Below, in pieces: positions 17,585 to 63,986 of a DNA stretch of 64,000 nucleotides. Numbering within the stretch: the first letter of the stretch is position 1; each line of letters opens with the position of its first letter. The notes under the pieces were generated by a model. That model ran no database searches. It saw only the letters and a program-made list of their open reading frames with translations, and had not been told where the DNA came from. The position numbers were made by a program, and so were the translations under genes. Source of the DNA: a marine actinobacterium PHSC20C1 (lineage in GTDB: Bacteria > Actinomycetota > Actinomycetes > Actinomycetales > Microbacteriaceae); assembly GCA_000153145.1 (NCBI GenBank), contig CH672415.1, positions 2,162,989 to 2,226,988 of the forward strand, read 5' to 3'.

Positions 17585-18510
17585 GCCGCATCGCAGAATC
17601 GCTGTTCTGGATCGGGCGTTACATTGAGCGAGCCGACGGAACCGCCCGCATCCTCGACGTGCACCTCCAGTTGTTGCTCGAAGACCCCTGGATCGAAGAA
17701 GACGACGCTTGCCGCGCACTCTTGAGTGTGATGGGAAGCGAAGCGCCACCGGATGCCGTGCTCACGCGCGGTGACGTGCTCTCGATTCTTGCGGTCGACC
17801 GGTCTGAGCCCGCATCAATCGCATACTCGCTTGGTGCCGCTCGCGAAAACGCTCGTCGGGCTCGCGAGATCGTTTCGACTGAGCTGTGGGAGTGCCTCAA
17901 TACGACAAGAGCCCGCATGCCGCGACGCATCTCAGAAGACAAGGTCAGCGACTTTTTCTCTTGGGTTCGCGAACGCAGCGCCCTAGCGGTCGGCATTATC
18001 GAGTCGGCGACGAGCCGCGATGAGGCCTGGCAGTTCTTTACTCTCGGTCGCAGCCTTGAGCGAGCAGACATGACGGCGCGCCTTCTTGCTACTCGAAGTC
18101 TCACTGAAGCGAGTGGCCCATCATGGACAACGATTTTGCGGTCATGTGGCGCTTATGAGCCGTACCTGCGCACCTACCGTGGTGTGCCGAGCGCGAGTAA
18201 CGCTGCAGAGTTTCTGCTGCTTGATCGCCTGTTCCCGCGCAGCATCCTCTTCTCGGTATCTCGGGCAGAAGATTGCATGCGTGAGCTCGAGCCTCGCCGC
18301 ATGAATCGGGTGGGTGTTGGCGATGACGCGCAACGGCTGCTGGGTAAAATTCGCAGCGAGCTGGAGTATCGACCAATTAACGAAATTCTGGATGATCTGC
18401 CCCACCACATGGATCGTGTGCAGGCAGCAACGAGTGCGGCTTCGGAGGCAGTGCGTCAGCGCTACTTCCCCACAAATGCCGCTCCCGAGTGGGTCGGAGA
18501 GATCTCATGA
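17578..18510 (+). CDS. Alpha-E domain-containing protein
   Basis: A 310-residue all-helical protein of the alpha-E family (DUF403), starting with the typical MLSRIAESLFWIGRYIERAD. Helical segments with many arginines and glutamates run throughout, for example AREIVSTELWECLN and LGRSLERADMTARLLATRS. No enzymatic activity is established for the family. It is nearly always found with permuted ATP-grasp and transglutaminase genes, as here. It overlaps its upstream neighbour and shares ATGA with the downstream gene. Confidence 0.92.
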   Translation: MLSRIAESLFWIGRYIERADGTARILDVHLQLLLEDPWIEEDDACRALLSVMGSEAPPDAVLTRGDVLSILAVDRSEPASIAYSLGAARENARRAREIVSTELWECLNTTRARMPRRISEDKVSDFFSWVRERSALAVGIIESATSRDEAWQFFTLGRSLERADMTARLLATRSLTEASGPSWTTILRSCGAYEPYLRTYRGVPSASNAAEFLLLDRLFPRSILFSVSRAEDCMRELEPRRMNRVGVGDDAQRLLGKIRSELEYRPINEILDDLPHHMDRVQAATSAASEAVRQRYFPTNAAPEWVGEIS

Positions 18511-49564: not shown

Positions 49565-49640
49565 GCGCCCGTAGCTCAGCGGATAGAGCAATTGACTACG
49601 GATCAATAGGCCGGGGGTTCAAATCCCTCCGGGCGCACCA
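49565..49640 (+). tRNA. tRNA-Arg (anticodon ACG), integration target
   Basis: A 76-base tRNA with CCA encoded. The acceptor stem GCGCCCG (49565-49571) pairs with CGGGCGC (49630-49636), the anticodon loop CTACGGA carries ACG, and the T loop GTTCAAATC is present. A TATAGT box at 49532-49537 is the likely -10. The 3' 45 bases of the gene body (49594-49638) are repeated exactly at 54929-54973, so it serves as an attachment site. Confidence 0.97.
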
Positions 49641-49831
49641 AATAAAGCAGGTCTGATCAGCACTTTCTCATGGAGTGCGGTCGGGCCTGTTTTTCTTTTG
49701 CCCACATTTTGCCCACACTTCAAAAAGTTTCGGGTCGAATTTCGGTCGAAATGCGGTCGGTGCGGCTCGTCCCGGCCCAGTGTTTGCCTGAGATTTGGTT
49801 CTCCGCACGGGAGTGACCTATTGACCTTTGA
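49594..49831 (+). repeat. Direct repeat copy 1: att core plus island left end
   Basis: The first 45 bases are the 3' part of the tRNA-Arg and are identical to 54929-54973. The following bases, to GTGACCTATTGACCTTTGA at 49813-49831, are homologous to 54974-55165 with scattered substitutions and about one single-base gap. The segment contains a terminator and two adjacent 11-mers, TGCCCACATTT (49699-49709) and TGCCCACACTT (49710-49720). Confidence 0.9.
49648..49699 (+). terminator. tRNA-Arg terminator
   Basis: The outer stem CAGG/CCTG and inner stem GCACT (49660-49664) / AGTGC (49674-49678) are followed by a T-rich tract (TTTTTCTTTT, 49690-49699). A near-identical copy lies at 54982-55032 behind the second att core. 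Confidence 0.75.
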
Positions 49832-49860
49832 ACAGTGGGTCATTCAGCCGGGCCTTTGCC

Positions 49861-49900
49861 TATAAATAGCTACAGATAAAAGTACCTGCATGCTATATTA
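49861..49900 (+). promoter_or_regulatory. abiE promoter with inverted repeat
   Basis: TATATT (49894-49899) is 6 bases before the ATG at 49906. TATAAATAGC (49861-49870) and GCTATATTA (49892-49900) form an imperfect inverted repeat around it. AbiEi antitoxins are known to repress their own promoter through inverted repeats, so this is a candidate operator. Confidence 0.55.
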
Positions 49901-49905
49901 GGCAC

Positions 49906-50487
49906 ATGTCAATCAGGAGCCTACCGATGCGAGCGTTCTCGCAATCTGAGGCGAGCCGCGCGGGAGTCGACTCGCGCCAGCTTTACAGGCTGCTGGAAAG
50001 ACAGCAGATTGAACGCATCAGTCGTGGACTGTATCGGCGCGCCGATCTCTCGATTGTCGACTTGGATCTGATTGAGATTGCCGCGCGGCGTCCGGATGCC
50101 ACGATCTGTTTGGAGTCGGCGCTCGCGCGTCATGAGTTGATCGATGCGATTCCGACTCGGACTGACATTGCTATTCCTCGAGGCAAGAAACCCGCGAAGA
50201 CGCAGGCTGCGGTCGACTGGCACTTGTTCGATCGGGCCACGTTCCACATCGGCCGCACGCTGCTCGAGACGGGGGATGCGGGTCAGAGCATTGGACTCTA
50301 TTCGCCTGAACGGTCGATTGTCGACGCGTTCAGGTTGCGTGGGACGGCAGGGTACGAGACGGGTATCGAAGCACTGCGCAACTGGCTGAAGCGCCCGGCG
50401 TCGCAGCCGGCGAAGCTGTTCGAGATTGCCCAGTCCTTGCCGCGGGCGATCGGCCCGCTGCGCACTGCGCTGGAGATCCTGACATGA
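49906..50487 (+). CDS. abiEi: AbiEi-type antitoxin (type IV toxin-antitoxin)
   Basis: A 193-residue protein with an N-terminal winged helix (FSQSEASRAGVDSRQLYRLL, ERISRGLYRRAD) and a C-terminal domain typical of AbiEi_4 (GLYSPERSIVDAFRLRG). In AbiE systems it counteracts the nucleotidyltransferase toxin and represses the operon. Two starts are possible: ATG 49906, leaderless behind TATATT, or ATG 49927 behind AGGAG. ATGA overlap with the toxin gene. Confidence 0.9.
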   Translation: MSIRSLPMRAFSQSEASRAGVDSRQLYRLLERQQIERISRGLYRRADLSIVDLDLIEIAARRPDATICLESALARHELIDAIPTRTDIAIPRGKKPAKTQAAVDWHLFDRATFHIGRTLLETGDAGQSIGLYSPERSIVDAFRLRGTAGYETGIEALRNWLKRPASQPAKLFEIAQSLPRAIGPLRTALEILT

Positions 50488-51356
50488 CTCCTGAGCAGAC
50501 CTTCAGTGCATTGCAACGGATTGCCCGACAAGAGGGCCGCGCTGTGCAGGAGCTTCTCACCCTGTATGTGTTGGAACGGTTCCTGGCACGCCTGGTTGAG
50601 TCCCCCTACGCGGACTCGTTCGTGCTCAAGGGCGGAGTCCTTCTTGCGGGCTACGGTCTCCGCCGGCCGACACGGGATGTTGATATGCAAGCAATCGACT
50701 TCGTGCTCGACGAGGAGCACTGCGGGAAGGTGGTCGCAGCGGTAGCAACTGCGGAGGCAGACGATGGCGTCGCCTTCGACGCGATCCCGACACGCATCGA
50801 ACAGATCCGTGACGAAGAGGAGTATTCGGGACTGCGGGTGCATGTCCGGGCGCAGCTCCACCGGTCGCCCATCGCCCTCAAGCTCGACATCAGCACCGGC
50901 GATCCAATCTCACCGCACGCGCAACTCGTGACAATGCCACGCATCCTCGGTGGTGAGTTCACGGTGATGGGTCATCCGCCCGAGACGGTCATTGCGGAGA
51001 AGGCAGTCACGATTCTTCAACGTGGTGCCACCAGCACGCGCTGGCGCGACTACATGGACTTGCGATCACTCGCCCTCAGCCGGAGCTTCAGCGCGGCAAC
51101 CTTGGGCAAGGCGATCGAGGAAGTCGCGAAGCACCGGACGGTCGAACTCTCCGCCCCTTCGGGATCGCTCAACGGACACGACGAAGTTGCACAGCAGAAG
51201 TGGGCTGCGTGGCGCAAGAAAACCGATGTTGAAGACATCACGCTGCCTGTCCTCGAGGATCAGCTCACCGAAGTGTGCGGATTCTTGGATCCGATTTTCA
51301 CCGACGAAGTCGAACCTGCGGCGGCGTGGGATCCAACTTCGAAAACATGGCATTGA
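50484..51356 (+). CDS. abiEii: AbiEii-type nucleotidyltransferase toxin
   Basis: A 290-residue toxin of the nucleotidyltransferase fold. The family motif is visible as LKGGVLLAGYGL (residues 48-59) followed by RPTRDVDMQA (61-70), with the two catalytic aspartates at 65 and 67. Later motifs are KLDISTGD and ETVIAEKAVTIL, then TSTRWRDYMDL. The family modifies tRNA or nucleotides and causes reversible growth arrest, giving phage abortive infection. Key residues are intact, so it should be active. Confidence 0.92.
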   Translation: MTPEQTFSALQRIARQEGRAVQELLTLYVLERFLARLVESPYADSFVLKGGVLLAGYGLRRPTRDVDMQAIDFVLDEEHCGKVVAAVATAEADDGVAFDAIPTRIEQIRDEEEYSGLRVHVRAQLHRSPIALKLDISTGDPISPHAQLVTMPRILGGEFTVMGHPPETVIAEKAVTILQRGATSTRWRDYMDLRSLALSRSFSAATLGKAIEEVAKHRTVELSAPSGSLNGHDEVAQQKWAAWRKKTDVEDITLPVLEDQLTEVCGFLDPIFTDEVEPAAAWDPTSKTWH

Positions 51357-51432
51357 GCCGTTTTGTCGCCCGGGTAATGTCACCGATGTCCTGAAACACA
51401 GCACATTTGGCGAGCAATCATCAGTGTGACAG

Positions 51433-51488
51433 TGCCCACATTTCAACCAGACCTGGAGAACATCGTGGTCAACCCACGTCATCGAAGT
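51433..51488 (+). repeat. Degenerate island right-end repeat
   Basis: This 56-base stretch aligns without gaps to 54805-54860; I count 47 identical positions. It begins with TGCCCACATTT. No tRNA core copy follows it, unlike the other copy. It lies 77 bases after the abiEii stop and marks a former element end or a rearrangement point. Confidence 0.75.
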
Positions 51489-51560
51489 GGGTTGGTCTCC
51501 TTCCGTGTCCTTGGGCCTTTCGACCCCATCCGTTCCGCCGTGGCTCGGCGAGCGATCGGA

Positions 51561-53852
51561 CTACAGTGATGAGTTGCGCCGGAGCGCTAATTCCTTGTTG
51601 AGCTTGTCTCCTTCGATGTCGAGGTTGGGGAGTAGTCGGTCGAGCCATCGGGGGATCCACCAGGATCGTTCGCCGAAGAGTGCGAGGAGCGCTGGTGTGA
51701 GGGTCATCCTGATCAGGAATGCGTCTAGGAGGATGCCGACTGACAGGGCGACTCCAATTTGCTTGACCATGATGTCTTCATTGAAGGCGAACCCGGCGAA
51801 AACGGCGACCATGATTATTGCCGCTGCAACGACGACCTTCGAGGCGTGCTCGAATCCGCGTTCGATCGCTTCGTGGCCGCGATGGCCGTGGACATGGGAT
51901 TCGCGCATGGAGGACACCAAGAAGACTTGGTAGTCCATGGCGAGGCCGTACAGGATGCCGGTGACGAGGATGGGCAGGAAGCTGACGATCGGCCCGGGGG
52001 TGTCGAACCCGAGCACGTTGGAGAACCAGCCTTCCTGGAACACCAGCGTTAGTACGCCCAGGGTTGCCAGGACGCTGAAGAGGAACCCGGCGGTCGCCTG
52101 GATGGGGATGAGCAGGGACCTGAAGACAAGCAGCATGATGATTAGTGACAGCACGACGATCACGGTTAGATACAGCGGGAGGGCAGCGGCCATGGCCGAA
52201 GAGATGTCGAGGGTGATGGCCGTCTGGCCGGTCACGCCCACGGTGAGGCCATACCGATCGGAGAACTCGTCGGCTAACCCGCGGATCTCGTGAACGAGGT
52301 CGCCGGTAGCTTCCGAGGCCGGACCCGATGTGGGTACGACAGAGAGGATCGCTGTCGTACGGTCGTCGTTGAGCCCGCCGGGGAGGACCAGATCTACGTT
52401 GCTCAGGGCGCGGAGTTCGTCGGAGAGGTCCGCAAGAGTTTGATCATCGATTTTGGTGCCCTCTTCTGATGTTGCAGCGAGAACGAGTTGGCCGCTGAAC
52501 CCTTCTCCAAAACCGGCGGCTGTGAGGTCGTAGCTCTCCCTTTCTGCAGTCCCAGTGTTGGCCGTGGCTGATGATGGCAGCCCCAGCGTCAGCGAGGTGG
52601 CAGGGATCGCCAAGGCGCCCAGGACGGCCACGACGATCAGAACCGCGGGCAAACGGAATCTCACAACCGCGGAGACGAACCGGTGAGCAACCGGGTGGTT
52701 CTCGTCAGCTGCCCCGGAAGACTTGAGACGGGCCCGCGCGCTGACGATCCGTTCCCCGACCAGGCCCAAGAGCGCTGGCACGAGGGTGAGCGCGATCGCG
52801 ATCGCGACCGCGACCGTGGCTGCGGCGACCAGGGCCATCGTGGTCAGCAACTGAATCCCCACTACCGACAGACCACATAACGCGATCAGGACGGTGAGGC
52901 CTGCGAAGAATACGGCGCTGCCGGCGGTGCCCGTGGCGCGAGCCGCGGCATCGCCAGCGCTCAGTTTGGAGTCGAGGATGAGTCGGCGTTGCCGGTTGAC
53001 GATGAATAGGGAGTAGTCGATGCCGACAGCGAGCCCGACCATCAGCGCAAGTACCGGGGTGACCGCGGACAGACTAATGACCGAGGACAAGGTGAAGGCA
53101 CCGCCGACACCCACTCCCACGCCGATCAGCGCGGTGACCAGCGGCAGCCCGGCCGCAAGGAGGGATCCGAGGGTCAGGGCGAGAACAAGGGCCGCCACGA
53201 GGAGACCGACGAGTTCGGCCGGCCCGGCAAGGTTCGGGATGAGGGGCACCAAGGTGGAACTTGGATAGACCCGCAAGGTCGCGCCGCTCGCGTTCGCAGC
53301 CGTTTCGCTACTTTGCCGGATCGCCTCCAGCGCTGCTGTGGGGACCGAGTCAACCTGTTCTGTTAGCTGGAAAGTGAACAAAGCGACTTCACGGTTGTCC
53401 GACACCAAAACGTTGGGGAGTATTGTCCCATCCGCGACCAACGGGGTCAGGCCGCCTAGCTGCTCCGAGACAATCGCGACCGCCTGCTCGGGTGGCAGCT
53501 GCGCCAGCGCGTCCATACCCTCCAACTCGCGCTGAGCGACGTACTCGTTGTCGCCGATCTCCTTCACTACCTCGACTATGGCGGAGGCGTTCGCCGGGTC
53601 ATCAACGTGGTCGCCATCGCCGACCGCGAACACTATAAACGCCTGAGAGCCGGCGGCGGCCGGAAAGTTCTCGCTCAACGTGTCGAGCACGTCCTGCGAG
53701 GGGGTCCCATCAATGCGGAACTCGCTGGTAACTTTCGGAGGCACCGCAACCAACACCGCCACGACCACCGCGAGGATGAGAGCCCACGCTCCGATCACGA
53801 TCCAGCGGTGCGTGAAGGCGAAGCGACCCAGACGGTAAAGGATTGATGACAA
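51561..53852 (-). CDS. MMPL/RND-family transporter
   Basis: A 763-residue membrane transporter with two MMPL halves, about twelve helices and two large extracellular loops. Each half carries the proton-relay motif: GLAVGIDYSLFIVNR in the first and LYGLAMDYQVFLVSSMRE in the second. Family members export lipids or drugs. The start is TTG with GGAGAG seven bases ahead. It lies 19 bases behind tetR and is presumably induced when TetR lets go of the promoter. Confidence 0.9.
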   Translation of the reverse strand: MSSILYRLGRFAFTHRWIVIGAWALILAVVVAVLVAVPPKVTSEFRIDGTPSQDVLDTLSENFPAAAGSQAFIVFAVGDGDHVDDPANASAIVEVVKEIGDNEYVAQRELEGMDALAQLPPEQAVAIVSEQLGGLTPLVADGTILPNVLVSDNREVALFTFQLTEQVDSVPTAALEAIRQSSETAANASGATLRVYPSSTLVPLIPNLAGPAELVGLLVAALVLALTLGSLLAAGLPLVTALIGVGVGVGGAFTLSSVISLSAVTPVLALMVGLAVGIDYSLFIVNRQRRLILDSKLSAGDAAARATGTAGSAVFFAGLTVLIALCGLSVVGIQLLTTMALVAAATVAVAIAIALTLVPALLGLVGERIVSARARLKSSGAADENHPVAHRFVSAVVRFRLPAVLIVVAVLGALAIPATSLTLGLPSSATANTGTAERESYDLTAAGFGEGFSGQLVLAATSEEGTKIDDQTLADLSDELRALSNVDLVLPGGLNDDRTTAILSVVPTSGPASEATGDLVHEIRGLADEFSDRYGLTVGVTGQTAITLDISSAMAAALPLYLTVIVVLSLIIMLLVFRSLLIPIQATAGFLFSVLATLGVLTLVFQEGWFSNVLGFDTPGPIVSFLPILVTGILYGLAMDYQVFLVSSMRESHVHGHRGHEAIERGFEHASKVVVAAAIIMVAVFAGFAFNEDIMVKQIGVALSVGILLDAFLIRMTLTPALLALFGERSWWIPRWLDRLLPNLDIEGDKLNKELALRRNSSL

Positions 53853-53871
53853 TGCGGTGCTCTCCTGCGGT

Positions 53872-54480
53872 TTATGAGGGAAGGTGGAAGCCGTGGCGGA
53901 GGTAGTCCGCGATGGTTGAAATGAACCCGTTAAGGCTCACTTCATTAAGGGGATCGGTGATGCTGTCGGCCTCCCGCAGAACGAGGCGACCGTCAAGCAG
54001 AGCCGACATGGCCCCGTACGCGGCCCCGACGACCAGGTACGCGTACATGGGCGGGTAGTCAGGTCCGAGACGCTCGCGGAGGAACTGGGTGGCCTCGGCA
54101 ATGCCGCGCTGCTCCACGTCGTGCAGGTAGGGCTGCAGGCTCGGGCTGTCGGAGGCAAGGTCGGCCAAGCGACGGTGAGTGGTGATCACGTACTCCGAGA
54201 ACTGCGTCCGGAGCAGGTTGTCGATCTGGTCGGGCAGCGGTACGTCGGACTCCACGGACAGGCCTTCGAGAGCCTCTCGCATCCGCAATAGAGTGACGAA
54301 CGCGACCGCCTGTTCCTTCGAGTCAAAATAGTTCGATACCGTGCGACGGGAGACATCAGCCACCACCGCGAGTTCCTCGAGCGAGAATCCCCCGAGCCCC
54401 CGCTCGCACGCCAAATCGAAGGCTGTTTCCGCAAGAAGACGCCGCATTGCGGACTTCTTACGTTCACGAAGATCCGGCAC
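53872..54480 (-). CDS. TetR-family regulator of the MMPL pump
   Basis: A 202-residue regulator. The N-terminal HTH is FSLEELAVVADVSRRTVSNYFDS, then an all-helical ligand domain. The frame is open to 54687, but the GTG at 54480 gives the usual TetR length and lies 6 bases after TACCAT, with a TTGCCA -35 at 18-base spacing. A 12-bp palindrome covers that -35, so autoregulation is likely. Confidence 0.88.
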   Translation of the reverse strand: MPDLRERKKSAMRRLLAETAFDLACERGLGGFSLEELAVVADVSRRTVSNYFDSKEQAVAFVTLLRMREALEGLSVESDVPLPDQIDNLLRTQFSEYVITTHRRLADLASDSPSLQPYLHDVEQRGIAEATQFLRERLGPDYPPMYAYLVVGAAYGAMSALLDGRLVLREADSITDPLNEVSLNGFISTIADYLRHGFHLPS

Positions 54481-54486
54481 ATCAAC

Positions 54487-54523
54487 ATGGTACGCGTAAA
54501 AGTGCAAGAATGGCAACGTTGCC
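54487..54523 (-). promoter_or_regulatory. tetR-MMPL promoter and operator
   Basis: Minus-strand -35 TTGCCA (54511-54516) and -10 TACCAT (54487-54492) are 18 bases apart. GGCAACGTTGCC (54512-54523) is a perfect palindrome over the -35 box. Confidence 0.7.
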
Positions 54524-54804
54524 GGAATGGATAGAATTTGGCAAGTACGCGATAGCCGGGAGCTTGCTCCTTGCCGCTTTGCTCGGGTGGGCGGGCGCCA
54601 TGGGTGGCATGCAAACTGGTGAAGCGCGTTCTCCGTTTTCACAATGGGTCCTGAAAGCGGACTTCGGTGCGGGATCGGTTCGGTCAACCGAAACAGCCAA
54701 CCGAAACCTCCTCCGCTCTAACCCCCCCTTCTTGATAGGCGCGATCCGCGCATCCGGTCCCTATGATGCGCAACCCAAAAATCAAACATGACTCAGTAAA
54801 CCCA

Positions 54805-54860
54805 TGCCCACATTTCACCCACACTTTGGGAACATCGTGGTCAGCTCCCGTCATCGAGGT
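54805..54860 (+). repeat. Island 1 right-end repeat
   Basis: It contains adjacent 11-mers TGCCCACATTT (54805-54815) and CACCCACACTT (54816-54826), in the same orientation as the pairs at the left ends, and aligns ungapped to 51433-51488. It lies 68 bases before the second att core. The whole 54493-54928 stretch holds no gene I can support. Confidence 0.75.
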
Positions 54861-54928
54861 CGTGCCCAGTCACCAATGATTTCGGGGGATTCCAGCCACT
54901 TCCGCATAGTTCCGGGGATACGGCTTTC

Positions 54929-55165
54929 GACTACGGATCAATAGGCCGGGGGTTCAAATCCCTCCGGGCGCACTAAAAAAGCAGGTCTGACCAGCACTTT
55001 CTTGTGGAGTGCGGTGGGGCCTGTTTTTCTTTTGCCCACATTTTGCCCACACTTCACAGAGTTTTGGGTGGGATTTCGACTGAAATGCGGACTATGCCGC
55101 TCTTCCCGACCCGGTGTTTGTCTGGGTTTCGGGCCACCGCGTGGGGGTGACCTATTGACCTTTGA
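54929..55165 (+). repeat. Direct repeat copy 2: att core plus island 2 left end
   Basis: It begins with the exact 45-bp tRNA-Arg 3' core and continues with the same terminator, the 11-mer pair (55033-55043, 55044-55054) and the closing GTGACCTATTGACCTTTGA (55147-55165). No 5' tRNA half is present, so this is a junction and not a second tRNA gene. Confidence 0.9.
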
Positions 55166-55270
55166 TCGAGTGGTTGGGGGCTTAGCCGTTCTCGATGTCG
55201 TCATGTGACCTGACCTACAGTTTGGTTTCCACTCGGGGTACCGATCTGGTACGGTCAAGGGTTTCGGCGT

Positions 55271-57220
55271 TCATGCCACGTCTAGTGCCGGGGCGAGTTG
55301 CACGGCGGTGCGGATGCTGTCGCGGGACAGACGTCCAGCGCGCACCCCGTTGGCGATGACGGCGATCTCTGCGAGCTCGTGCGCGAGCACGACGGAGGCG
55401 AGACCGAGCACGCCGAACAGGGCCAGCGGGACCAGCAGGCCGATCAGCAGCAGTGACAGGCCCACGTTCTGCAGCATGATCCTGCGCGTTCTGCGCGCGT
55501 GCTCCAGTACCCGGGGCAGGTGGTTCAGGTCTTCACCCATCAAGGCGATGTCTGCGGTCTCGATCGCGACGTCGGTGCCCATGGCACCCATGGCGATCCC
55601 GGCATCGGCGGTGGCCAGGGCTGGCGCGTCGTTGACTCCGTCACCGACCATCGCAGTCGGCTGACGTGCCTTGAGCGTGCGGATGATCTCGGCCTTGTCT
55701 TCGGGCCGAAGGTCCGCGTGGACTACGGTGATGCCGGCGTCTGCGGCGAGAGCTTTCGCCGTGATGGTGTTGTCGCCGGTCAGCATCGCGACGGTATAAC
55801 CGGACCGGGTCAGCCGGGCGATCACGTCGTGCGCTTCGGGGCGCAGTTCATCCCTGACCGCGATGGCGCCGATAACTTGTCCTTCTTCCTCGACGAGGAC
55901 GGCGGTGGCACCGGCGCGCTGCATCCGGTCGATGTCCGCAGACAGCGGGCCGGGGTTGATCCAGCCCGGACGGCCCAGGCGCAGGCGCCTGCCTTCCAGA
56001 ACACCTTCCAATCCGGCGCCCGGGAAGGTGTTGACGTCGGTGACTTCGGCGCGGTCGGGTGAGGCGGCGAGGATCGCACGGGCGAGGGGGTGTTCGCTGC
56101 GTGCTTCCAGTCCGGCTGCGGCGGCCAGCACCTGTTCCCTGGTTGTGGCTTGGACTACCGCGACGTCGATGACGACCGGCTTGTTTCGGGTGAGGGTGCC
56201 GGTCTTGTCAAGGGCGATGGTGCGGATTTTGCCGAGTGTTTCCAGCGCGCCGCCGCCCTTGATGAGAACTCCGATGCGGCTGGCGGCGCCCACTGACGCC
56301 ACGACCGTAACGGGGACGGAGATTGCAAGGGCGCAGGGCGAAGCCGCGACCAAGACGACGAGGGCGCGCTCGAACCACAGCAGTGGTTCTCCGATGATGA
56401 AGCCGAACACAATGATCAGTCCGGCGACGATCAGGATGCCAGGTACGAGCCGTCCGGCGATCGTGTCGGCTAACCGCTGGCCGGGGCCTTTGCGGGATTG
56501 TTCGACCTCGACGATGTGCACAATCCTGGACAGCGAGTTGTTCTCCGCGGTGCTGATGACTTCTACTTCGAGTGGGCCGGTGCCGTTGATGGAACCAGCG
56601 TAAACCTCTGCGCCCGGTCCAGCTTCGACGGGGACGGATTCACCCGTCAGGGCTGAGGTGTCCAGTGAGGTGCGGCCGGTGAGGATGCGGCCGTCGGTGG
56701 CTAGGCGCTCACCGGGGCGGACAATCATCCTATCTCCGAGGGCGAGTTCGGCCGGGGCGACGGTGATTTCACTGCCGTCGCGCAGGACGGTTGCTTCTGC
56801 GGGGACAAGGTCCAACAGTGCGCGCAGCCCGCGGCGGGTTTTCGCCAGGGAATATTCCTCAAGTCCTTCGGAGATGGCGTAGAGGAAGGACAATAAGGCC
56901 GCTTCCTCGACTTGGCCGAGTGCGACGGCGCCGACGGCGGCGATGGTCATGAGCGTGCCGACGCCGATCCGGCCCTTGGCCAGGCGCTTCAGTGTCGTGG
57001 GAACGAAGGTCCAGGCCGATATGAGTAGCGCGGAGGCCTCCAAGGGAAACGTCAGCCATATCGGGGCGCCTGTTAGGGAGGCGATCCATGCTGTGAGCAG
57101 CAGCACTCCGGAAACGGCTGCTGCCCGGATCTCACGCACATGCCAGAATCCTTCGGCTTCCTGTTCGCCGGCTTCTCCTACATCGGGCCCCTCTTCGGCA
57201 CCGCCCCCTACGTCGCTCAT
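55271..57220 (-). CDS. Heavy-metal-translocating P-type ATPase (P1B)
   Basis: A 649-residue metal exporter with no N-terminal CxxC metal-binding domain; the first 25 residues are acidic. Conserved sites are TGES (192-195), the membrane SPC (294-296), the phosphorylated aspartate in DKTGT (338-342) and GDGVNDAPAL. The final helix pair has VVLAHELAEIAVIANGVR. SPC is typical of P1B-4 (Co/Zn/Cd) pumps, but the usual HEGGT of that class is replaced by HELAE. Paired with a CmtR-like sensor, cadmium, lead, zinc or cobalt export is likely. Its start overlaps the cmtR stop by one base. Confidence 0.92.
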   Translation of the reverse strand: MSDVGGGAEEGPDVGEAGEQEAEGFWHVREIRAAAVSGVLLLTAWIASLTGAPIWLTFPLEASALLISAWTFVPTTLKRLAKGRIGVGTLMTIAAVGAVALGQVEEAALLSFLYAISEGLEEYSLAKTRRGLRALLDLVPAEATVLRDGSEITVAPAELALGDRMIVRPGERLATDGRILTGRTSLDTSALTGESVPVEAGPGAEVYAGSINGTGPLEVEVISTAENNSLSRIVHIVEVEQSRKGPGQRLADTIAGRLVPGILIVAGLIIVFGFIIGEPLLWFERALVVLVAASPCALAISVPVTVVASVGAASRIGVLIKGGGALETLGKIRTIALDKTGTLTRNKPVVIDVAVVQATTREQVLAAAAGLEARSEHPLARAILAASPDRAEVTDVNTFPGAGLEGVLEGRRLRLGRPGWINPGPLSADIDRMQRAGATAVLVEEEGQVIGAIAVRDELRPEAHDVIARLTRSGYTVAMLTGDNTITAKALAADAGITVVHADLRPEDKAEIIRTLKARQPTAMVGDGVNDAPALATADAGIAMGAMGTDVAIETADIALMGEDLNHLPRVLEHARRTRRIMLQNVGLSLLLIGLLVPLALFGVLGLASVVLAHELAEIAVIANGVRAGRLSRDSIRTAVQLAPALDVA

Positions 57221-57600
57221 CAGGCGTTCTCCTTTGTCAGTGATGCATCGGTGTATGCGTTGCCGTAGGCAGGGCAGAGACTGACCGCGTTGCCGGTGGC
57301 AGCCAGCAGTTGCTCAGCCCGCGCCAGCATGTCCATCAGCTCTGGCCGTGCCAGAGAGTAGTACACGCTGCGGCCCTGGACCCGGCCCTGGACCAGGCCG
57401 CAGTCACGCAGGCAAGCCACATGCGCAGATACTGTTGATTGGGCTAGGCCCAACTCCGCGGTCAGATCCCCGACCCGCACCTCTCCGCGGGTCATGCGCT
57501 TCACGATGGACAGCCGTGTCGGGTCGCTGAGGGAATGAAACAGCGCCGCTGCCGGATCGAGCCCGCAGCTATCGGCGGTCACACTTGGAATGATCGTCAT
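57220..57600 (-). CDS. cmtR: CmtR-like ArsR-family Cd/Pb sensor
   Basis: A 126-residue winged-helix repressor. The recognition helix reads AQSTVSAHVACLRDCGLV and contains Cys63 and Cys67; a third cysteine is at 109 in SLCPAYG. Mycobacterial CmtR senses Cd/Pb with two cysteines in the same helix plus one in the C-terminal tail, and this layout matches. The ATG follows TATCAT (57607-57612) by 6 bases. It precedes and should repress the P1B ATPase. Confidence 0.9.
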   Translation of the reverse strand: MTIIPSVTADSCGLDPAAALFHSLSDPTRLSIVKRMTRGEVRVGDLTAELGLAQSTVSAHVACLRDCGLVQGRVQGRSVYYSLARPELMDMLARAEQLLAATGNAVSLCPAYGNAYTDASLTKENA

Positions 57601-57964: not shown

Positions 57965-58394
57965 CTACCTCAAGGCGACGGTGAGCAATCCTGGGCCGAG
58001 CAGGGCGTTAGCTTCTGCACTGAGCAGCGCGCGATACGTCTTACTGTGCGATGCATGGTGCGCGGGTGATTCGTCCACGGTGTGCTGGGCCTGCAGGCTT
58101 GCCTCCGCGACCGACCGTTTCGTATGCTCATCGGGCAGCGGGCAAAACAAGCGATTGCCGTCCTTGCACATAAAGACGAGTTTGCCCTAGCGCAGCTTCG
58201 CTAAATATGTGAGGCACCGCGGCCAGATTGCGCTCGACCGTGTCAGCGAGATGATTCACCGACAACTCGCCATCCTGCAAAGCGAGCACAGTTTGAATGC
58301 AGGTGGCGCCAACAAGCAGCTGAAATATATCCATTGCGATCTCAACATGTTCGCGACCTGATTTGATCCGTTCCACACGCGCATCTCCATGCAT
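57965..58394 (-). pseudogene. Decayed ArsR-family regulator
   Basis: Two frames together read as an ArsR repressor. The first gives MDIFQLLVGATCIQTVLALQ and DGELSVNHLADTVERN, up to about 58205. The second continues LAKLR, an in-frame TAG (58187-58189), then GKLVFMCKDGNRLFCPLPDEH and SLQAQHTVDESPAHHAS. The parts fit the usual order (helix-turn-helix, wing, C-terminal helix with His residues) only if one base near 58205 is removed. One frameshift and one stop therefore break it. Confidence 0.75.
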
Positions 58395-58530
58395 CCTCAG
58401 ATGCTGGAGAGACGGACATTTCCTTTCCTCTTACGGCGCCTCGGATGCTGAATAGTTCATTAAGAAAGAGAGCTAAGTCCTCGTGGAGTAGAGCACTGCA
58501 CGTTATGGCACGTACGGTTCTGAAAGCGAG

Positions 58531-59493
58531 TCAACGACGACTCTGCAGCGACTGTAAGTAGTCGTTGTACCCGTCCAAATCCGGATCTCCTTCGGCGTCC
58601 GCGCGTTTCGAGGCCCTGGCTGCTCTCACTGTGTCCTGTCGCTGCCAGCGCACGAGGGTAATGATCAAGATAAGGACCACTGGTAGCTCGCCGTATGTCC
58701 ACACGAGCGTTCCCGCTAGCCTTTGGTCCTGCAGCGGATCTACGCCCAACCCTGGAGGGGGCGAGTTGAAGAACGGGATCAGCGCAGTGGAGGCGAAGAT
58801 CAGCACGAGCGCGAAAGCGGCGTGCAGTTGCATTTCCACGACAGCGTCAAATATGCGCGCCACAAACGATGTTCGTCGCGGAAGAGGATCGCCTGACACC
58901 AGAGGTGTGGCAACCACAACCCCGACGATTAGGAACCCCACCTCCAGCGCGATGTGTCCGAGCCAGCTGGCCAAGAAAATATTTGCTACGCCGCCCAAGT
59001 AGAGTCCGAAGAGGCTCAGAATCATCAACGGAACTACAAGTGCCGGATGGAGAGCGGCCCTGCCTAGACGTGATCGGAGGCCGAAAAGTGCGGCTCTGAG
59101 AACAATTTTGCCACCAAATCGGTGGGGGGTTGCCCGCAGGAGTAGCGTTCCCGGGGAGCCGAGTATGAAGAGCGGGGGAATTACCATCATCAACGTAAGT
59201 TGTTGAAATATGAAGACTGACAACATCCGGAGTCCGTAGGCGTCGATACGTGTTCCTGTGACGATCAACAGTAGAGCGCAACCTAATAGGAAACAGACTG
59301 TGCGAATCACCGACCATCGACGACCCTGAGCCCAAAGTCGAGTCGCACCCACTATGTATGCGGCTGCAAGAAAAGCGGCGAGAGCTGGCATCACGGGAAA
59401 AGCCAGCGTGTCCCATGTCAGGAACTCTTCAAAGCTGGGAGCTAGAAGTGGTTCTCCACTGGGACCGTTTGTCGAGGGGGGCATCGGGCTCAC
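58531..59493 (-). CDS. ctaG: CtaG/Caa3-type cytochrome oxidase assembly membrane protein
   Basis: A 320-residue membrane protein with about seven helices, matching the Caa3_CtaG family. Typical segments are GTRIDAYGLRMLSVFIFQQL, MMVIPPLFILGSP, and MQLHAAFALVLIFASTALI. Family members help copper insertion into cytochrome oxidase or act in copper handling. The GTG overlaps the stop of the metal sensor gene by 4 bases, so here it is part of a metal-responsive operon. No oxidase genes are nearby. Confidence 0.88.
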   Translation of the reverse strand: MSPMPPSTNGPSGEPLLAPSFEEFLTWDTLAFPVMPALAAFLAAAYIVGATRLWAQGRRWSVIRTVCFLLGCALLLIVTGTRIDAYGLRMLSVFIFQQLTLMMVIPPLFILGSPGTLLLRATPHRFGGKIVLRAALFGLRSRLGRAALHPALVVPLMILSLFGLYLGGVANIFLASWLGHIALEVGFLIVGVVVATPLVSGDPLPRRTSFVARIFDAVVEMQLHAAFALVLIFASTALIPFFNSPPPGLGVDPLQDQRLAGTLVWTYGELPVVLILIITLVRWQRQDTVRAARASKRADAEGDPDLDGYNDYLQSLQSRR

Positions 59494-59939
59494 GGCCGCT
59501 TCACCGAACTTATATTCGTGAGTTCTTCTACCAGACTCACATTAGATCGTTCCGGATGGACGAGTTCTGTATGACCGACGTGCTCGAGGCCAAGTTTTAG
59601 AAGAGTAAGAACATGGAGATCGGCTAACTCGTAGGAAGCTACTCGTCCCTTCCTATGCACATCGACGACACGATGCGCACGTAAAAGGCGGAGCGCATGC
59701 GAGACTGCTGACTCACTCATCTCGATCGTGGCTGCGAGGTCACGAACGCACATCGGACCATTAAGCAGCGCGATCAGTAGTCGGACACGGTTTGGTTCCC
59801 CGAGTAGGCCAAATACATCGGCCAGATCGATTACATCGGCGTCGGGGGGCATGGATGCTCTTGCCGATGCCACTTGGGCGGCATTGATGGTAGGCAAATT
59901 CTGCCTGCGGTGAGCCTTGTCCGGAATCAACTGGCTCAC
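59490..59939 (-). CDS. SmtB/CzrA-type ArsR-family zinc/cobalt sensor
   Basis: A 149-residue repressor. The HTH is MCVRDLAATIEMSESAVSHALRL; the C-terminal helix is DLHVLTLLKLGLEHVGH, giving Asp107, His109, His120 and His123. This is the DxHx(10)HxxH alpha-5 site of CzrA-type Zn/Co sensors, complete. The GTG start has GAGGG upstream and overlaps the small ORF's stop (GTGA). It presumably controls the CDF exporter and CtaG. Confidence 0.9.
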   Translation of the reverse strand: MSQLIPDKAHRRQNLPTINAAQVASARASMPPDADVIDLADVFGLLGEPNRVRLLIALLNGPMCVRDLAATIEMSESAVSHALRLLRAHRVVDVHRKGRVASYELADLHVLTLLKLGLEHVGHTELVHPERSNVSLVEELTNISSVKRP

Positions 59940-60133
59940 ACTGCCCTCGGCGCATCGGTAAGACTAACCCTCACTTTGAGCGAGGAGTTCGTTTGACGGG
60001 CGTTCTTCATAACGCATTCGCGACCCTTCTTCTTCGGCCATACTCCCAGCAGCGTAGGGAATTGTCGATCTCGACAGCTGATCGTTTGCATCTCACAAAC
60101 GGTGCTTCGCAAACTGACCATTTCATTAGTCAC
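59936..60133 (-). CDS. Small ORF of unknown function in the CDF-sensor operon
   Basis: A 65-residue frame starting with GTG 17 bases behind the CDF stop and ending in a GTGA overlap with the sensor gene. The protein has three cysteines (residues about 13, 20 and 40) and a basic C-terminal half. I do not recognise a family. The tight packing supports it; GAAGG just before the GTG is too close to be a good ribosome site. It may instead be a leader region. Confidence 0.4.
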   Translation of the reverse strand: MTNEMVSLRSTVCEMQTISCRDRQFPTLLGVWPKKKGRECVMKNARQTNSSLKVRVSLTDAPRAV

Positions 60134-60150
60134 CCTTCGTTCGGTTAGCG

Positions 60151-61053
60151 CTACACGAGATTTGTTGTTTCATTGAATCCCCGGGGTTCGCACTGAATTG
60201 TGGCATGAGAGATTCCGTACTTCTCGTGGAGCAGCGCAAGTACTGTCTTCAAAACCGTTCGGTAGTCGCTGTCGTCTTCAATGACGATGTGACCGCTGGC
60301 GCTTTCTATCCCGGATGTAATTGTCCAGACATGAAGGTCATGAACTTTAGAGACACCTGGCAGGCGAAGTATCTCAACCTGAACTTGATCAATGTCGATG
60401 TTAGGCGGGGCAACCTCCATGAGGATGCGAAGTGCCTGCTGGGTGAGTTTCCAGGTCCGCGGGAGGATAAAAAGACCAATCCCGACACCGATGATCGGAT
60501 CCGCATACTGCCACCCGGTGGTGTAGAGAATGATGGCTGCGATAATTACGCCGACCGATCCGAGCAGATCTGCCAACACCTCCAGATATGCACCTTTGAG
60601 ATTCAGGCTCTCCTTCGACCCCGCCATGAGAAGCCGGAAGCTGATGAGATTCACAACCAAGCCGACGGACGCAACCAAAAACAGCGGTAAACCCGGTACC
60701 TCAGGCGGGTCGCTGAACCGTTGAATCGCTTCGTAAAGTACGTATCCAGCCACGCCAAACAGCAGAAGACCGTTTGCGAGCGCGGCAAGAACTTCAAGGC
60801 GATATAGCCCATAAGTGCGTTGAGTCGCGGCCTTCCTAGAGGCCAACGTAATGGCCGCCAAGGCCATGCTCAAGCCCAGAACATCGGTGCCCATGTGAGC
60901 TGCATCCGAGATTAGGGCCAGCGAGTTCACTGAAAATCCCACAATGAACTCAACTACCATATATGTCGCAGTGAGGATCAGCGCGATTACGAGTGGCTTG
61001 CGGTGCCGGCCGGCGGCACTTGTCGCTGAAATATGCGAATGTTCTGTACCCAC
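60151..61053 (-). CDS. czcD: Cation diffusion facilitator (CzcD/ZitB-like)
   Basis: A 300-residue six-helix Zn/Cd/Co:proton antiporter. Metal-site residues are His53 and Asp57 in helix 2 (SDAAHMGTD) and Glu158 and Asp162 in helix 5 (AYLEVLADLLGS), the HxxxD/ExxxD form found in CzcD. The cytoplasmic domain ends with VHDLHVWTITSG and GISHATIQCEP. GTG start with AGGGG upstream. A weak imperfect inverted repeat at 61071-61095 is a possible sensor operator. Confidence 0.92.
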   Translation of the reverse strand: MGTEHSHISATSAAGRHRKPLVIALILTATYMVVEFIVGFSVNSLALISDAAHMGTDVLGLSMALAAITLASRKAATQRTYGLYRLEVLAALANGLLLFGVAGYVLYEAIQRFSDPPEVPGLPLFLVASVGLVVNLISFRLLMAGSKESLNLKGAYLEVLADLLGSVGVIIAAIILYTTGWQYADPIIGVGIGLFILPRTWKLTQQALRILMEVAPPNIDIDQVQVEILRLPGVSKVHDLHVWTITSGIESASGHIVIEDDSDYRTVLKTVLALLHEKYGISHATIQCEPRGFNETTNLV

Positions 61054-61324
61054 GTCATCCCCTTGAACTTATATCTGAACAGTCTTGCATATGATGGGCG
61101 GACTGAACTCAGTTTTCGCGCACCTTCCGATCAGTGTTGGCTAAAACCTGCCGGGAAACCGTGCTTCTAGTGCAGAATACAAATCGGAATGGGTTAAGTA
61201 GTGAGCGATCTCACCCAGCCGTTGATGTCTGCGTAGGTACAGTCGGTTGTTTCGGCTTAAGTGTCTGTCTGAGCAACTGCCGCGCCGGGCCCCGCCGGCA
61301 CGACAACAAGATAAGATCGAATTG

Positions 61325-61777
61325 ATGAATTCCCAACCAGTGTGCGGAACTAGTGCGTCGATCGCATCAGTTAGAGCCATGCAGCTTTTCATCATGGTCT
61401 TCTCTCTTGTGCTCGTGAGCATGGGGATACTCGCTAGCCACCACGCCCAAGTAACTGAAGATCGGGTTGCGCAGTCAACTGTGGCGGAACTAGGGGTGGT
61501 TTTCCAAGCCTTGACTCCCGCCGGTGAGGCCTCCTCCTCCGCGGCTCTTTCAAGCACACAGATAGTTGGCGGGCTAGCAGTCGGTTGCCTTTTTTTGATC
61601 GCCTGCTGCACTATCGGTCTCGCTTTGATTGCTGCCCGTGTCTGGCGTGGCAAACTGCCGAGAACGCTTAACGCAATACCTCTCCGACGCGAGACCCGAA
61701 TTCTCGGCTGGACTCCAGCTGGTCCATCAACGGCGGCCCGCCCCAGCTTGGTCGCGCTCTCCATTAGTCGCACATAA
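61325..61777 (+). CDS. Small membrane protein, function unknown
   Basis: A 150-residue protein with two likely membrane helices, QLFIMVFSLVLVSMGILASH (near residue 20) and IVGGLAVGCLFLIACCTIGL (near residue 80), and a basic C-terminus. I recognise no family. TAAGAT (61312-61317) is 7 bases before the ATG, consistent with a leaderless gene. It is divergent from the CDF operon and points towards the thiol-redox genes. Confidence 0.6.
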   Translation: MNSQPVCGTSASIASVRAMQLFIMVFSLVLVSMGILASHHAQVTEDRVAQSTVAELGVVFQALTPAGEASSSAALSSTQIVGGLAVGCLFLIACCTIGLALIAARVWRGKLPRTLNAIPLRRETRILGWTPAGPSTAARPSLVALSISRT

Positions 61778-61901
61778 GCCGTTGTCGGCACGATAGCTCG
61801 CGGCGTATTGCGCTTCCCAGCTGGTGCCGTTTTGAGTACAACGACCAATCTTGCGTTGTGCTTGACCGCTTGCGTTTCCCCTAATCCTGGAGAGTATAAA
61901 A

Positions 61902-62567
61902 TTGAAGACCAATACTAAAGTCGCACTCGCAACCACTGGTGGGCTGATTCTTGTGGTAATCGCGGTGATCGTTGTCCTCCTCGCTCAAGCTCAGCAGTCT
62001 CGCCCCACAGCCGAATCTGATCCCATGACGGGGATCGCATCCGCCACTAGGGGTGACAGTCACATCTTGGATAACGCCGGCGACGGTGCGGTCACCGTCG
62101 TCGAGTTCCTCGATTTCGAATGCGAAGCTTGTGCTGCCGCCTATCCGGTGGTGGAGGAACTTCGGCAGGAGTTCTCGGGTCAGGTGACGTTCGTCTTGCG
62201 CTACTTCCCTCTTCCCGGCCACTTCAATTCGACGAACGCAGCCGTCGCCGTCGAGGCGGCCGCTCAGCAAGGCGAGCTTGAGGCCATGTACAAGCAAATG
62301 TTTGCGACGCAATCCGAATGGGGAGAAGCGCAGCAGTCGCAGGCGCCTCTGTTTCGCAAGTTTGCCGAAGATCTAGGTCTTGACTTGGCACAGTACGATG
62401 CGGCCGTGGCTGACCCGGCAACAACAGCGCGGGTCGAGTCGGACTTCAAGGACGGGGTCGCGCTTGGGGTCAACTCCACCCCTACCTTCTTCGTGAACGA
62501 CCAGATTGTGGAACTCCGATCTTTTGGCGACCTACGAACCGCGATCGACGCCGAGTTGTCCCGTTGA
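61902..62567 (+). CDS. DsbA-family thiol-disulfide protein, membrane-anchored
   Basis: A 221-residue protein with an N-terminal membrane helix (GGLILVVIAVIVVLLAQ) and an extracytoplasmic DsbA/thioredoxin_4 domain. The redox pair is Cys74 and Cys77 in DFECEACAAAYPV; the cis-proline loop is NSTPTFFVND. It probably oxidises or isomerises disulfides outside the membrane. The start is TTG with GGAGAG ahead. Together with TlpA-like and CcdA genes it makes a redox relay. Confidence 0.9.
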   Translation: MKTNTKVALATTGGLILVVIAVIVVLLAQAQQSRPTAESDPMTGIASATRGDSHILDNAGDGAVTVVEFLDFECEACAAAYPVVEELRQEFSGQVTFVLRYFPLPGHFNSTNAAVAVEAAAQQGELEAMYKQMFATQSEWGEAQQSQAPLFRKFAEDLGLDLAQYDAAVADPATTARVESDFKDGVALGVNSTPTFFVNDQIVELRSFGDLRTAIDAELSR

Positions 62568-62625
62568 TATCGGTCAACGAAAGTCTCGAGTCGAAGCATT
62601 CAGCGCGTGTAGTCGGACAACAGCG

Positions 62626-63234
62626 ATGACTCGGGTCAACTCGTCGTTTCGAGTGACCGCGGCTCTCCTCGTCGCTGCCGCAACGTTGGTGCTAGCAGGG
62701 TGTTCTTCTGGCGAGGGCGCTCTCGGGCAGGCTGGCAGCAACTATGCGTCAGGTGACGGAACCATAAGCGAGTTCGCAATCGACACCCGTGGCGAAAAGA
62801 TCAACTTCAGCGGAATAACTGAGGCCGGTGAGAACCTTAGCGCCGAACAATTCCGGGGGCAGGTGACTGTGGTCAACTTTTGGTATGCCGCATGTCCCCC
62901 GTGCCGATTGGAAGCTCCCTGGCTAGAGGAATTGTGGCAGCAATTCGAAACCGAGAACGTTCAATTCGTTGGAGTCAATGTTCGCGATAGCACCGCGACG
63001 GCACAGACATTCGCGCGCGAGTTTGGGATCACCTACCCCTCGATCGTTGACACTGATGGGGCTGCCGCTCTCGGGTTCGCGGGCGTAGCGTCCCCAACCG
63101 CTGTGCCCACAACCGTCGTCCTCGACCGGCAAGGACGGCCGGCCTCGCGCATCGTCGGGCTTATCGACAAGAGCATTCTGGAAGAACTAATCGCTTCCGC
63201 CCTTGAGGAACCCTCGGATGGCGGTGGAGATTGA
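62626..63234 (+). CDS. TlpA/ResA-like thioredoxin lipoprotein
   Basis: A 202-residue lipoprotein. The lipobox LAGC places the lipidated cysteine at 26. A TlpA-type domain follows with the redox pair Cys90 and Cys93 in [13 protein letters not shown] and the cis-proline in [11 protein letters not shown]. It reduces disulfides or apocytochromes outside the membrane. The ATG has no good ribosome site; its stop overlaps the ccdA start. Confidence 0.9.
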
Positions 63235-63986
63235 TGGGCGGAATCGGCGAGTTCTTTGCACAGACGGTCTACTCCGGCGCATTGCTGATGGCTATCCCGT
63301 TCGCGATGCTCGCCGGAATCGTGTCGTTCCTCTCTCCGTGTGTGCTGCCGCTGGTACCGGGATTCGTTGGGTACGTTTCGGGCCTCGCTGACCCAAGCAC
63401 GAGCCAAGGTCGGCGTCGCGTTGTGATAGGCACCGTGCTGTTTATCCTCGGCTTCTCCGCCGTTTTCATCGCCTACGGCACTGCGTTCGGTGCGCTCGGT
63501 TCGTGGCTAGTCCGCTGGCAGGATGTCCTCATTCGCGTCTTAGGAGTGCTGGTAGTCATAATGGGGTTGGTGATGGTTGGTGCGTTCGCCAGCCTGCAGC
63601 GCACGATGAAGCCATCTTGGGTTCCTTCGCCCGGCCTCGCGGGCGCGCCGTTGCTCGGTGTGGTATTCGGCCTGGGTTGGACGCCGTGCATTGGTCCAAC
63701 GCTTAGTGCTGTTATCGCTCTCAGTCTGACGGGTGGAAGCCCGTGGCGCGGTGCAACTCTCGGCTTGGCATACTGTCTCGGGCTCGGGATTCCGTTCTTG
63801 CTCTCCGCGATCGGCGTGAGCTGGGCCACTCGCGCACTGGTCGCGATAAAGCGACATATCCGCCTCATCAATATTCTCGGAGGCGGCACTCTCATCCTGC
63901 TTGGAGTGCTGATGATTTCCGGTATCTGGAGCGCGATCGCCCGACAGATCCAAGGACTTATCGGCTCCTTCACGACCGTTATCTGA
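63234..63986 (+). CDS. ccdA: CcdA-family electron transfer membrane protein
   Basis: A 250-residue six-helix protein of the CcdA/DsbD-beta family. The conserved cysteines are in [14 protein letters not shown] (Cys36) and [13 protein letters not shown]. It carries electrons from cytoplasmic thioredoxin across the membrane, here presumably to the TlpA-like and DsbA-like partners. The ATG overlaps the tlpA stop (TGATG) and has GGAG ahead. It ends 14 bases before the window edge. Confidence 0.92.

Follow-up and report, generated by a model that had tools for sequence, protein, structure and literature searches.

What does it mean when the 3' end of a tRNA gene recurs downstream of that gene, and the same DNA follows both copies? 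The question is raised by a 64 000-nucleotide stretch of the marine actinobacterium PHSC20C1 (C1:2162989-2226988 of a 2.77-Mb genome, G000 in our comparison), hereafter the window, in which islands lie behind a tRNA-Arg(ACG) gene (49565-49640, forward strand). We conclude that the locus is probably a tandem array of helper-dependent mobile cassettes of the kind called cis-mobilizable elements (CIMEs), accreted at the 3' end of tRNA-Arg(ACG) by the integrase of an integrative and conjugative element (ICE). The case is carried by cassette borders, cassette-free sites in relatives, varied cargo between conserved ends, the lack of an integrase match, and a co-located ICE that shares core and right end with the cassettes. 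Positions are those of the window, and numbers above 64 000 continue its numbering along the contig.

A repeated tRNA end with a shared continuation

The attachment (att) core is a 45-bp sequence that begins at the anticodon loop of the tRNA-Arg gene and is found on the forward strand at 49594-49638 and, identically, at 54929-54973; an earlier, sequence-only reading had claimed this exact repeat, and alignment bears it out. The homology which that reading saw beyond both cores is also real: local alignment pairs 49572-49838 with 54907-55173, and BLAST of the two copies gives 86.6% identity over 246 bp (E = 1.6e-74), a likeness of core and left end far beyond chance, with GTGACCTATTGACCTTTGA lying within the shared end of both copies. 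Searching the organism's own genome with a 301-bp query that starts at the tRNA returned three places at E ≤ 0.001. The third, past the window at C1:2229060 (66072), matches query bases 35-162 at 94% over 128 bp and supplies the further core copy that had been anticipated to the right of position 64 000; the integrase anticipated on that side is not among the open reading frames (ORFs) of at least 150 aa between 63000 and 103000.

Conserved ends of a cassette family

The repeats belong to a family of cassettes with one plan: core, left end of ∼195 bp, variable cargo, right end of ∼125 bp, and core again. We aligned 24 right ends and 29 left ends, the latter drawn from 18 genomes in five genera (12 genomes of the window's genus and six of four further genera, g38, g43, g77, and g83); at least three of these left ends are partial or drifted (G000 c3, G306 c2, and G318 c6). 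The left ends share a terminator hairpin with compensatory changes (e.g. A-U to G-C and C-G to U-A), followed by GCCCACA repeats at about +62 and +73 and then by ∼100 less conserved bases up to near TTGACCTATTGACCT. An exact (G/A)CCCACA pair, 11 bp apart, is present in 22 of the 29, with up to four copies, and TTGACC occurs at least once near the inner border in 26. The right ends fit a single pattern in 22 of 24 cases, opening with TGCCCACATTTCACCCACA (with small changes) and closing at the core ∼125 bp later. These 22 comprise 18 cassettes with a known left end, G311 (where the left side of the contig is missing), two ICEs, and G242e2, so that cassettes account for 19; the right ends of G314 and G168 match at the arm pair only and stand outside the 22. 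Since the sequences adjoining the ends are mostly unrelated, the cassette borders are sharp. Eighteen cassettes are bounded by core and both ends, thus retaining attL and attR, and range from 1939 to 15 719 bp.

One left end of G318 (L088, minus strand, ∼17466-17796) has 12 copies of TTGACC at 8-bp steps (TTGACCTA), compared with one or two in most left ends; the run looks iteron-like.

Cassette-free sites and distribution

Cassette-free sites exist. The sequence-only reading would have been undone by relatives that keep the ∼190-bp left end as ordinary flanking DNA, and in G197 and G308 this sequence is missing: the tRNA core runs straight into a different terminator and flank. When the cassettes of G306 and G304 are removed in silico, the joined flanks align unbroken to G308 and G197 (366 of 403 and 228 of 240 columns). 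The 3' part of the tRNA-Arg gene in the window is accordingly the copy supplied by the first cassette.

A core within one mismatch is found in 24 of 27 genomes of the genus, 14 of which have two or more copies, though in three of these (G311, G312, and G315) the copies are on separate contigs, some within whole tRNA genes. G318 has six cores (five exact, one changed), and G302, G304, G306, and G242 have three each within one mismatch, G302 carrying a changed core besides. In a search of the family, 292 of 299 genomes match, nearly all over the tRNA part only; G039 and G283 have partial left-end matches, which were neither aligned nor counted. The exact left-end pattern, with no mismatch allowed, occurs in only one of 396 genomes of the order, the window's own, in a sample holding 33 other members of the family, none of which we know as a carrier of the left end. 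In a named collection, which may leave out the window's own genome, it occurs in 13 stretches on 10 contigs (Salinibacterium, Glaciihabitans, Frigoribacterium, Leifsonia, Microbacteriaceae, and one Actinomycetota metagenome-assembled genome).

Some cassettes recur in different settings. G242e1 and G307e1 are the same cassette, 99.4% identical over 4986 columns, as compared to 92.1% for their left flanks and 79.7% for their right flanks, and the two species carry different DNA soon after the core. G318e3 and G318e5 are near-duplicates (98% identical) with another cassette between them, and G318e2 shares 2079 bp with the ICE right end at 99.8%.

Several sites have irregular forms. G282, G039, G314, G299, and G303 (L040, L047, L071, L079, and L080) each have part of the core (bases 20-47 or 26-47) repeated ∼180-235 bp past the start of the tRNA-Arg core, with a piece of cassette left end behind it in G039, G314, and G303. 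In G302 (L065, 1047-1323), two cores stand 229 bp apart, the second changed, with a left end but neither cargo nor right end; this is perhaps a deletion remnant. At the start of G242's second element (L038, 6057-13324), a 40-bp native-terminator copy takes the place of a cassette left end, and the element has a broken integrase piece inside.

No integrase in the cassettes, and a candidate helper

Whole-genome scans of all 18 left-end genomes found no PF00589 (tyrosine integrase) match beside any of the 29 left ends, in a zone extending to the next core or, where there is none, over 20 kb or to the contig end. G000 has five PF00589 matches genome-wide, none near the array. A serine recombinase was considered as the mover and rejected: none of the cassettes in the 27 genus genomes has a PF00239 match, and the sole match within an array is in the G318 ICE. 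The cassettes also fit the description of CIMEs as elements free of transfer genes, as far as can be said without a systematic scan for such genes; G302e2 and G318e2 contain pieces shared with the ICE.

An intact integrase is present at the same site in two relatives. G318 and G145 carry ICEs of 59 and 66 kb in the first slot, with the integrase adjoining the core (387 aa, 99.2% identical between the two), followed by five cassette left ends in G318 and one in G145. The ICEs have core and right end in common with the cassettes, their right ends being 90-92% identical to the one before core 3 of G000, and have a left end of their own that contains the 3' end of the integrase gene and arms at about +110 and +121. 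Pfam recognizes an integrase domain, a TrwC relaxase, and a ParA-like ATPase in the G318 ICE, and its Arm-DNA-bind_4 score for the integrase (21.7 bits) falls just under the cut-off of 22.3. The G145 ICE matches that of G318 over 11.3, 8.6, 3.5, and 2.1 kb. Further genes there look like conjugation genes by order and translation; the two tested have no Pfam match.

The repeats link cassettes to this type of enzyme. A TGTGGGC (GCCCACA) pair with the same 11-bp spacing stands beside 5 of 12 related integrases (45-61% identical), which adjoin tRNA-Phe, Lys, Lys, Arg(CCT), and Arg(CCG), and beside none of eight remote ones (26-35% identical). Because it is found with integrases at different tRNAs, the pair goes with part of an integrase family rather than with one target, and we read the GCCCACA pairs as behaving the way arm-type sites would.

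Proposed mechanism and its weight

We infer that the ICE integrase acts on the cassettes, either in trans or by co-excision. A tyrosine integrase of the G318/G145 type, supplied by the ICE, would bind the GCCCACA arm sites in both ends and recombine the 45-bp core; insertion would restore the tRNA and provide it with a terminator from the cassette itself, further insertions at any core would build a stack, and cassettes could reach new hosts by excising together with an ICE in the first slot. Site-specific accretion is the most likely way in which the array was built.

Several observations weigh against this account. The exact 11-bp pair is missing from 7 of the 29 left ends, where a degenerate or displaced copy stands, and 7 of the 12 related integrases have no repeat pair in the 901 bp examined. 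The ICE left end is unlike that of the cassettes outside the arm sites, and an intact copy of the candidate helper integrase at tRNA-Arg(ACG) was seen in G318 and G145 only. G000 has no close relative of it, its best match reaching E = 9.5e-10 at 26% identity, nor was an ICE found at its own tRNA-Arg site; we read the helper as gone from G000 or never resident there, and since no close helper integrase was found, the G000 array is probably silent now. Nor is the flank the same in all relatives: over a length of ∼1.9 kb past the core, G306, G307, and G308 share one that is unlike that of G197 and G082, and either might hide an older remnant. ICE fragments in two cassettes (G302e2 and G318e2) fit decay as well as capture, and the shared ends could also let cargo move by homologous recombination. 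Finally, we infer excision and transfer of the cassettes from comparison of genomes.

Origin of the cassettes and alternative explanations

As to where such cassettes come from, we tentatively entertain a lineage of their own: satellites of ICEs, with dedicated ends and an AbiE backbone whose middle is replaced by cargo, would depend on integrase and transfer functions given in trans by a helper ICE and form an integron-like array at a tRNA gene. A real though lesser possibility, overlapping with helper-dependent accretion and differing as to origin, is that these are ordinary CIMEs, each an independent relic of a full tRNA-Arg ICE that lost its integrase and transfer genes and kept attL and attR. 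CIMEs without integration or transfer genes, with both att sites kept, and in tandem with an ICE at one site are described in PMC5704250, and the broken integrase piece of G242e2 and the ICE fragments of G302e2 and G318e2 would suit such an origin. Relics would, however, be expected to keep the ICE left end with its integrase 3' end and its more distant arms, whereas the 29 left ends share a layout with nearer arms and none matches the ICE end outside the arms; moreover, repeated independent decay would hardly yield the same sharply bordered end of ∼195 bp.

Exchange of cargo by homologous recombination between shared ends after DNA uptake, with no site-specific recombination, is unlikely as a full account. 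It would explain fusions, truncated ends (51433-51488), and chimeric cassettes such as G318e2 with its stretch of ICE right end, yet the borders of the arrays are the core itself, the cassette-free sites are seamless, and arm-type repeats persist in ends from five genera. Very unlikely is a phage satellite moved by the integrase of a temperate phage instead of an ICE: a size of 1.9-15.7 kb and a missing integrase would fit, but the intact integrase-bearing elements seen at the site are that of G318, with its TrwC-type relaxase, and that of G145, which matches over that part.

Local duplication in G000, the other option of the sequence-only reading, is contradicted by comparison with other species. 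Identity between the left ends of copies 1 and 2 is 82.7%, compared with 86.7% between copy 1 and a left end of G302, and a tie at 82.7% for copy 2; the right end before core 3 is 95.3% identical to one in G145 and 73.2% to that before core 2. Between the interiors of islands 1 and 2, the sole common match of at least 250 bp (the shortest length considered) is a remnant of abiEii plus its right end. The shared core and left end alone would permit a duplication of one island or of the tRNA 3' region, which can thus be ruled out, for each end resembles a sequence of another species at least as closely as it does its local partner, the interiors are unlike, and the left-end sequence is missing from cassette-free sites.

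Relation to known systems

Integron cassette arrays likewise consist of non-autonomous cassettes stacked around one anchor. Unlike integrons, the array of G000 has no PF00589 match (the family of IntI) nearby, its core is tRNA DNA, and the cassettes are large and have two long ends. The cassettes also differ from integrative and mobilizable elements and from ICEs in having no integrase of their own, as they do from tycheposons, which carry a tyrosine recombinase in the element according to the part of PMC10872708 compared.

The closest likeness is to CIMEs as presented in the text compared: cassettes without an integrase and with both att ends kept have accreted with an ICE at the same site (G318 and G145). 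Unlike CIMEs so described, they share a left end that differs from the ICE's, span five genera, and have an AbiE pair or relic in 8 of 18. The ssrA islands of Dehalococcoides also form a tandem row at one RNA gene and include islands without an integration module, but in the sections of PMC3146451 compared a serine recombinase is at work and the module is present in sixteen islands, as against a tyrosine integrase family here and none of 29. TR1/TR2 of Streptomyces scabiei, as far as the excerpt of PMC8369830 goes, similarly place an actinobacterial CIME beside an ICE with an internal att site between them, though as a single CIME at aviX1 rather than a cassette family at a tRNA. The additive flexible genomic islands of Alteromonas and Methylophilaceae resemble our array in having a conserved tRNA target for varying cassettes, or tRNA 3'-end repeats that mark the island; the text compared (PMC4119200 and PMC10872708) names neither conserved cassette ends nor a helper.

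CIMEs, accretion, and tRNA-anchored additive islands are therefore already known, and what differs is a left end of the family's own shared across genera, an AbiE backbone, and arm sites that connect the cassettes with a family of integrases. Among the literature matches listed, none describes this cassette family, and none of those listed in one search names Salinibacterium. Integrase-less elements are often taken for relics; conserved ends with changing cargo in five genera, and a plausible helper in sister species, make mobilization in trans directly testable here. The cassettes point to one way for metal, efflux, transport, and defence genes to spread among these actinobacteria, and the arm-repeat signature may help to pair integrase-less islands with a helper integrase.

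Structure of the array in PHSC20C1

We read the locus as three stacked elements, the first of them a fusion of two. The stacking of related elements proposed from the sequence alone is supported by the end identities and unlike interiors described above; its count of two was too low, in view of the third core and the composite island 1.

Island 1 (49594-54928, 5335 bp) consists of a left end, an AbiEi/AbiEii pair, an MMPL/TetR pair, and a right end. Its left end (49639-49838, forward strand) has the terminator hairpin, two GCCCACA direct repeats 11 bp apart (49700-49717, putative integrase arm-type sites by the left-end alignment), and an inner TTGACCTA repeat, seen at 49814-49831 as TGACCTATTGACCT with an 8-bp unit, that marks the inner border. 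On the forward strand follow the AbiEi antitoxin of a type IV toxin-antitoxin system (49906-50487, PF13338) and the AbiEii nucleotidyltransferase toxin (50484-51356; PF08843, E = 1.7e-36). A truncated cassette right end, reduced to its first 56 bp and with the core lost, lies at 51433-51488 on the same strand (84% identical to 54805-54860), and it is because of this core-less beginning that we read island 1 as an AbiE cassette fused to an MMPL cassette. The second part has, on the reverse strand, an MMPL family transporter (51561-53852, PF03176) and a TetR-type regulator (53872-54471, PF00440; the scanned stretch, as the ORF start may lie further out), and ends with the island's right end of ∼125 bp (54805-54928, forward strand), which has an arm pair at its outer limit.

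Island 2 (54929-66071, 11 143 bp) has its left end at 54974-55173 (forward strand), identified by the repeat and left-end alignments. Its cargo comprises, on the reverse strand, a P-type ATPase read as a metal exporter (55271-57220; PF00122 and PF00702), two ArsR-family regulators (57220-57600 and 59490-59939, PF01022), a CtaG-like protein (58531-59493, PF09678), and a cation-efflux (CDF) transporter (60151-61053, PF01545), and, on the forward strand, a DsbA-like thioredoxin (61902-62567, PF13462), a TlpA/ResA-like thioredoxin (62590-63234, AhpC-TSA match), and a CcdA/DsbD-like membrane protein (63231-63986, PF02683). Beyond the window are a ResB gene and, just before core 3 at 66072, a relic of the abiEii 3' end with a right end (65685-66003 against 51172-51488, 69%). 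At window positions 58001-62000, G+C is 0.54-0.56, compared with ∼0.60 in most of the window, which suggests that the cargo is of mixed origin.

Past core 3, ∼82 bp of left end remain, and the next ∼13 kb are occupied by other genes (radical SAM, MFS, DoxD, phosphorylase, and others); sequence resembling the relatives' right flank returns only at 79284-79363 and 79355-80159. No right end was found for this stretch, which we read as a third element that has lost its right att along with part of the flank.

Cargo and a putative AbiE backbone

Across the family, cargo includes the AbiE toxin-antitoxin, metal, efflux, and other genes. By their translations, relatives carry copper-type genes (G302e1), Kdp genes (G304e1), an aspartate exchange system (G304e2), Fic proteins, a beta-propeller protein, and AbiE pairs. 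The AbiE pair or its relic recurs in eight bounded cassettes (G000e1, G000e2, G242e1, G307e1, G302e2, G318e3, G318e5, and G318e4, the last with a divergent pair whose AbiEii is confirmed by Pfam). In six of these eight, the abiEii 3' end lies 206-210 bp ahead of the core, and the distance from the start of the core to that of abiEi is 312 bp in G220 (a member of another genus, with a broken abiEi), as compared to 313 bp in G000. This constancy at both ends suggests that cargo displaced the middle of an ancestral AbiE cassette.

Three cassettes have cargo of other kinds. In the Kdp-like cassette of G304 (L067, 9366-9815) there is an 88% copy of the flank found beyond the tRNA-Arg site in relatives, as if chromosomal DNA had been captured. 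The smallest cassette, of 1.9 kb in G082, encodes a single 400-aa protein (L037:5583-6785, minus strand) that has no Pfam match and mostly recurs in G306. Beside its divergent AbiE pair, G318e4 encodes a 337-aa protein (L061:4050-5063, minus strand), without a Pfam match, that has the look of a CD-NTase and is possibly defence cargo.

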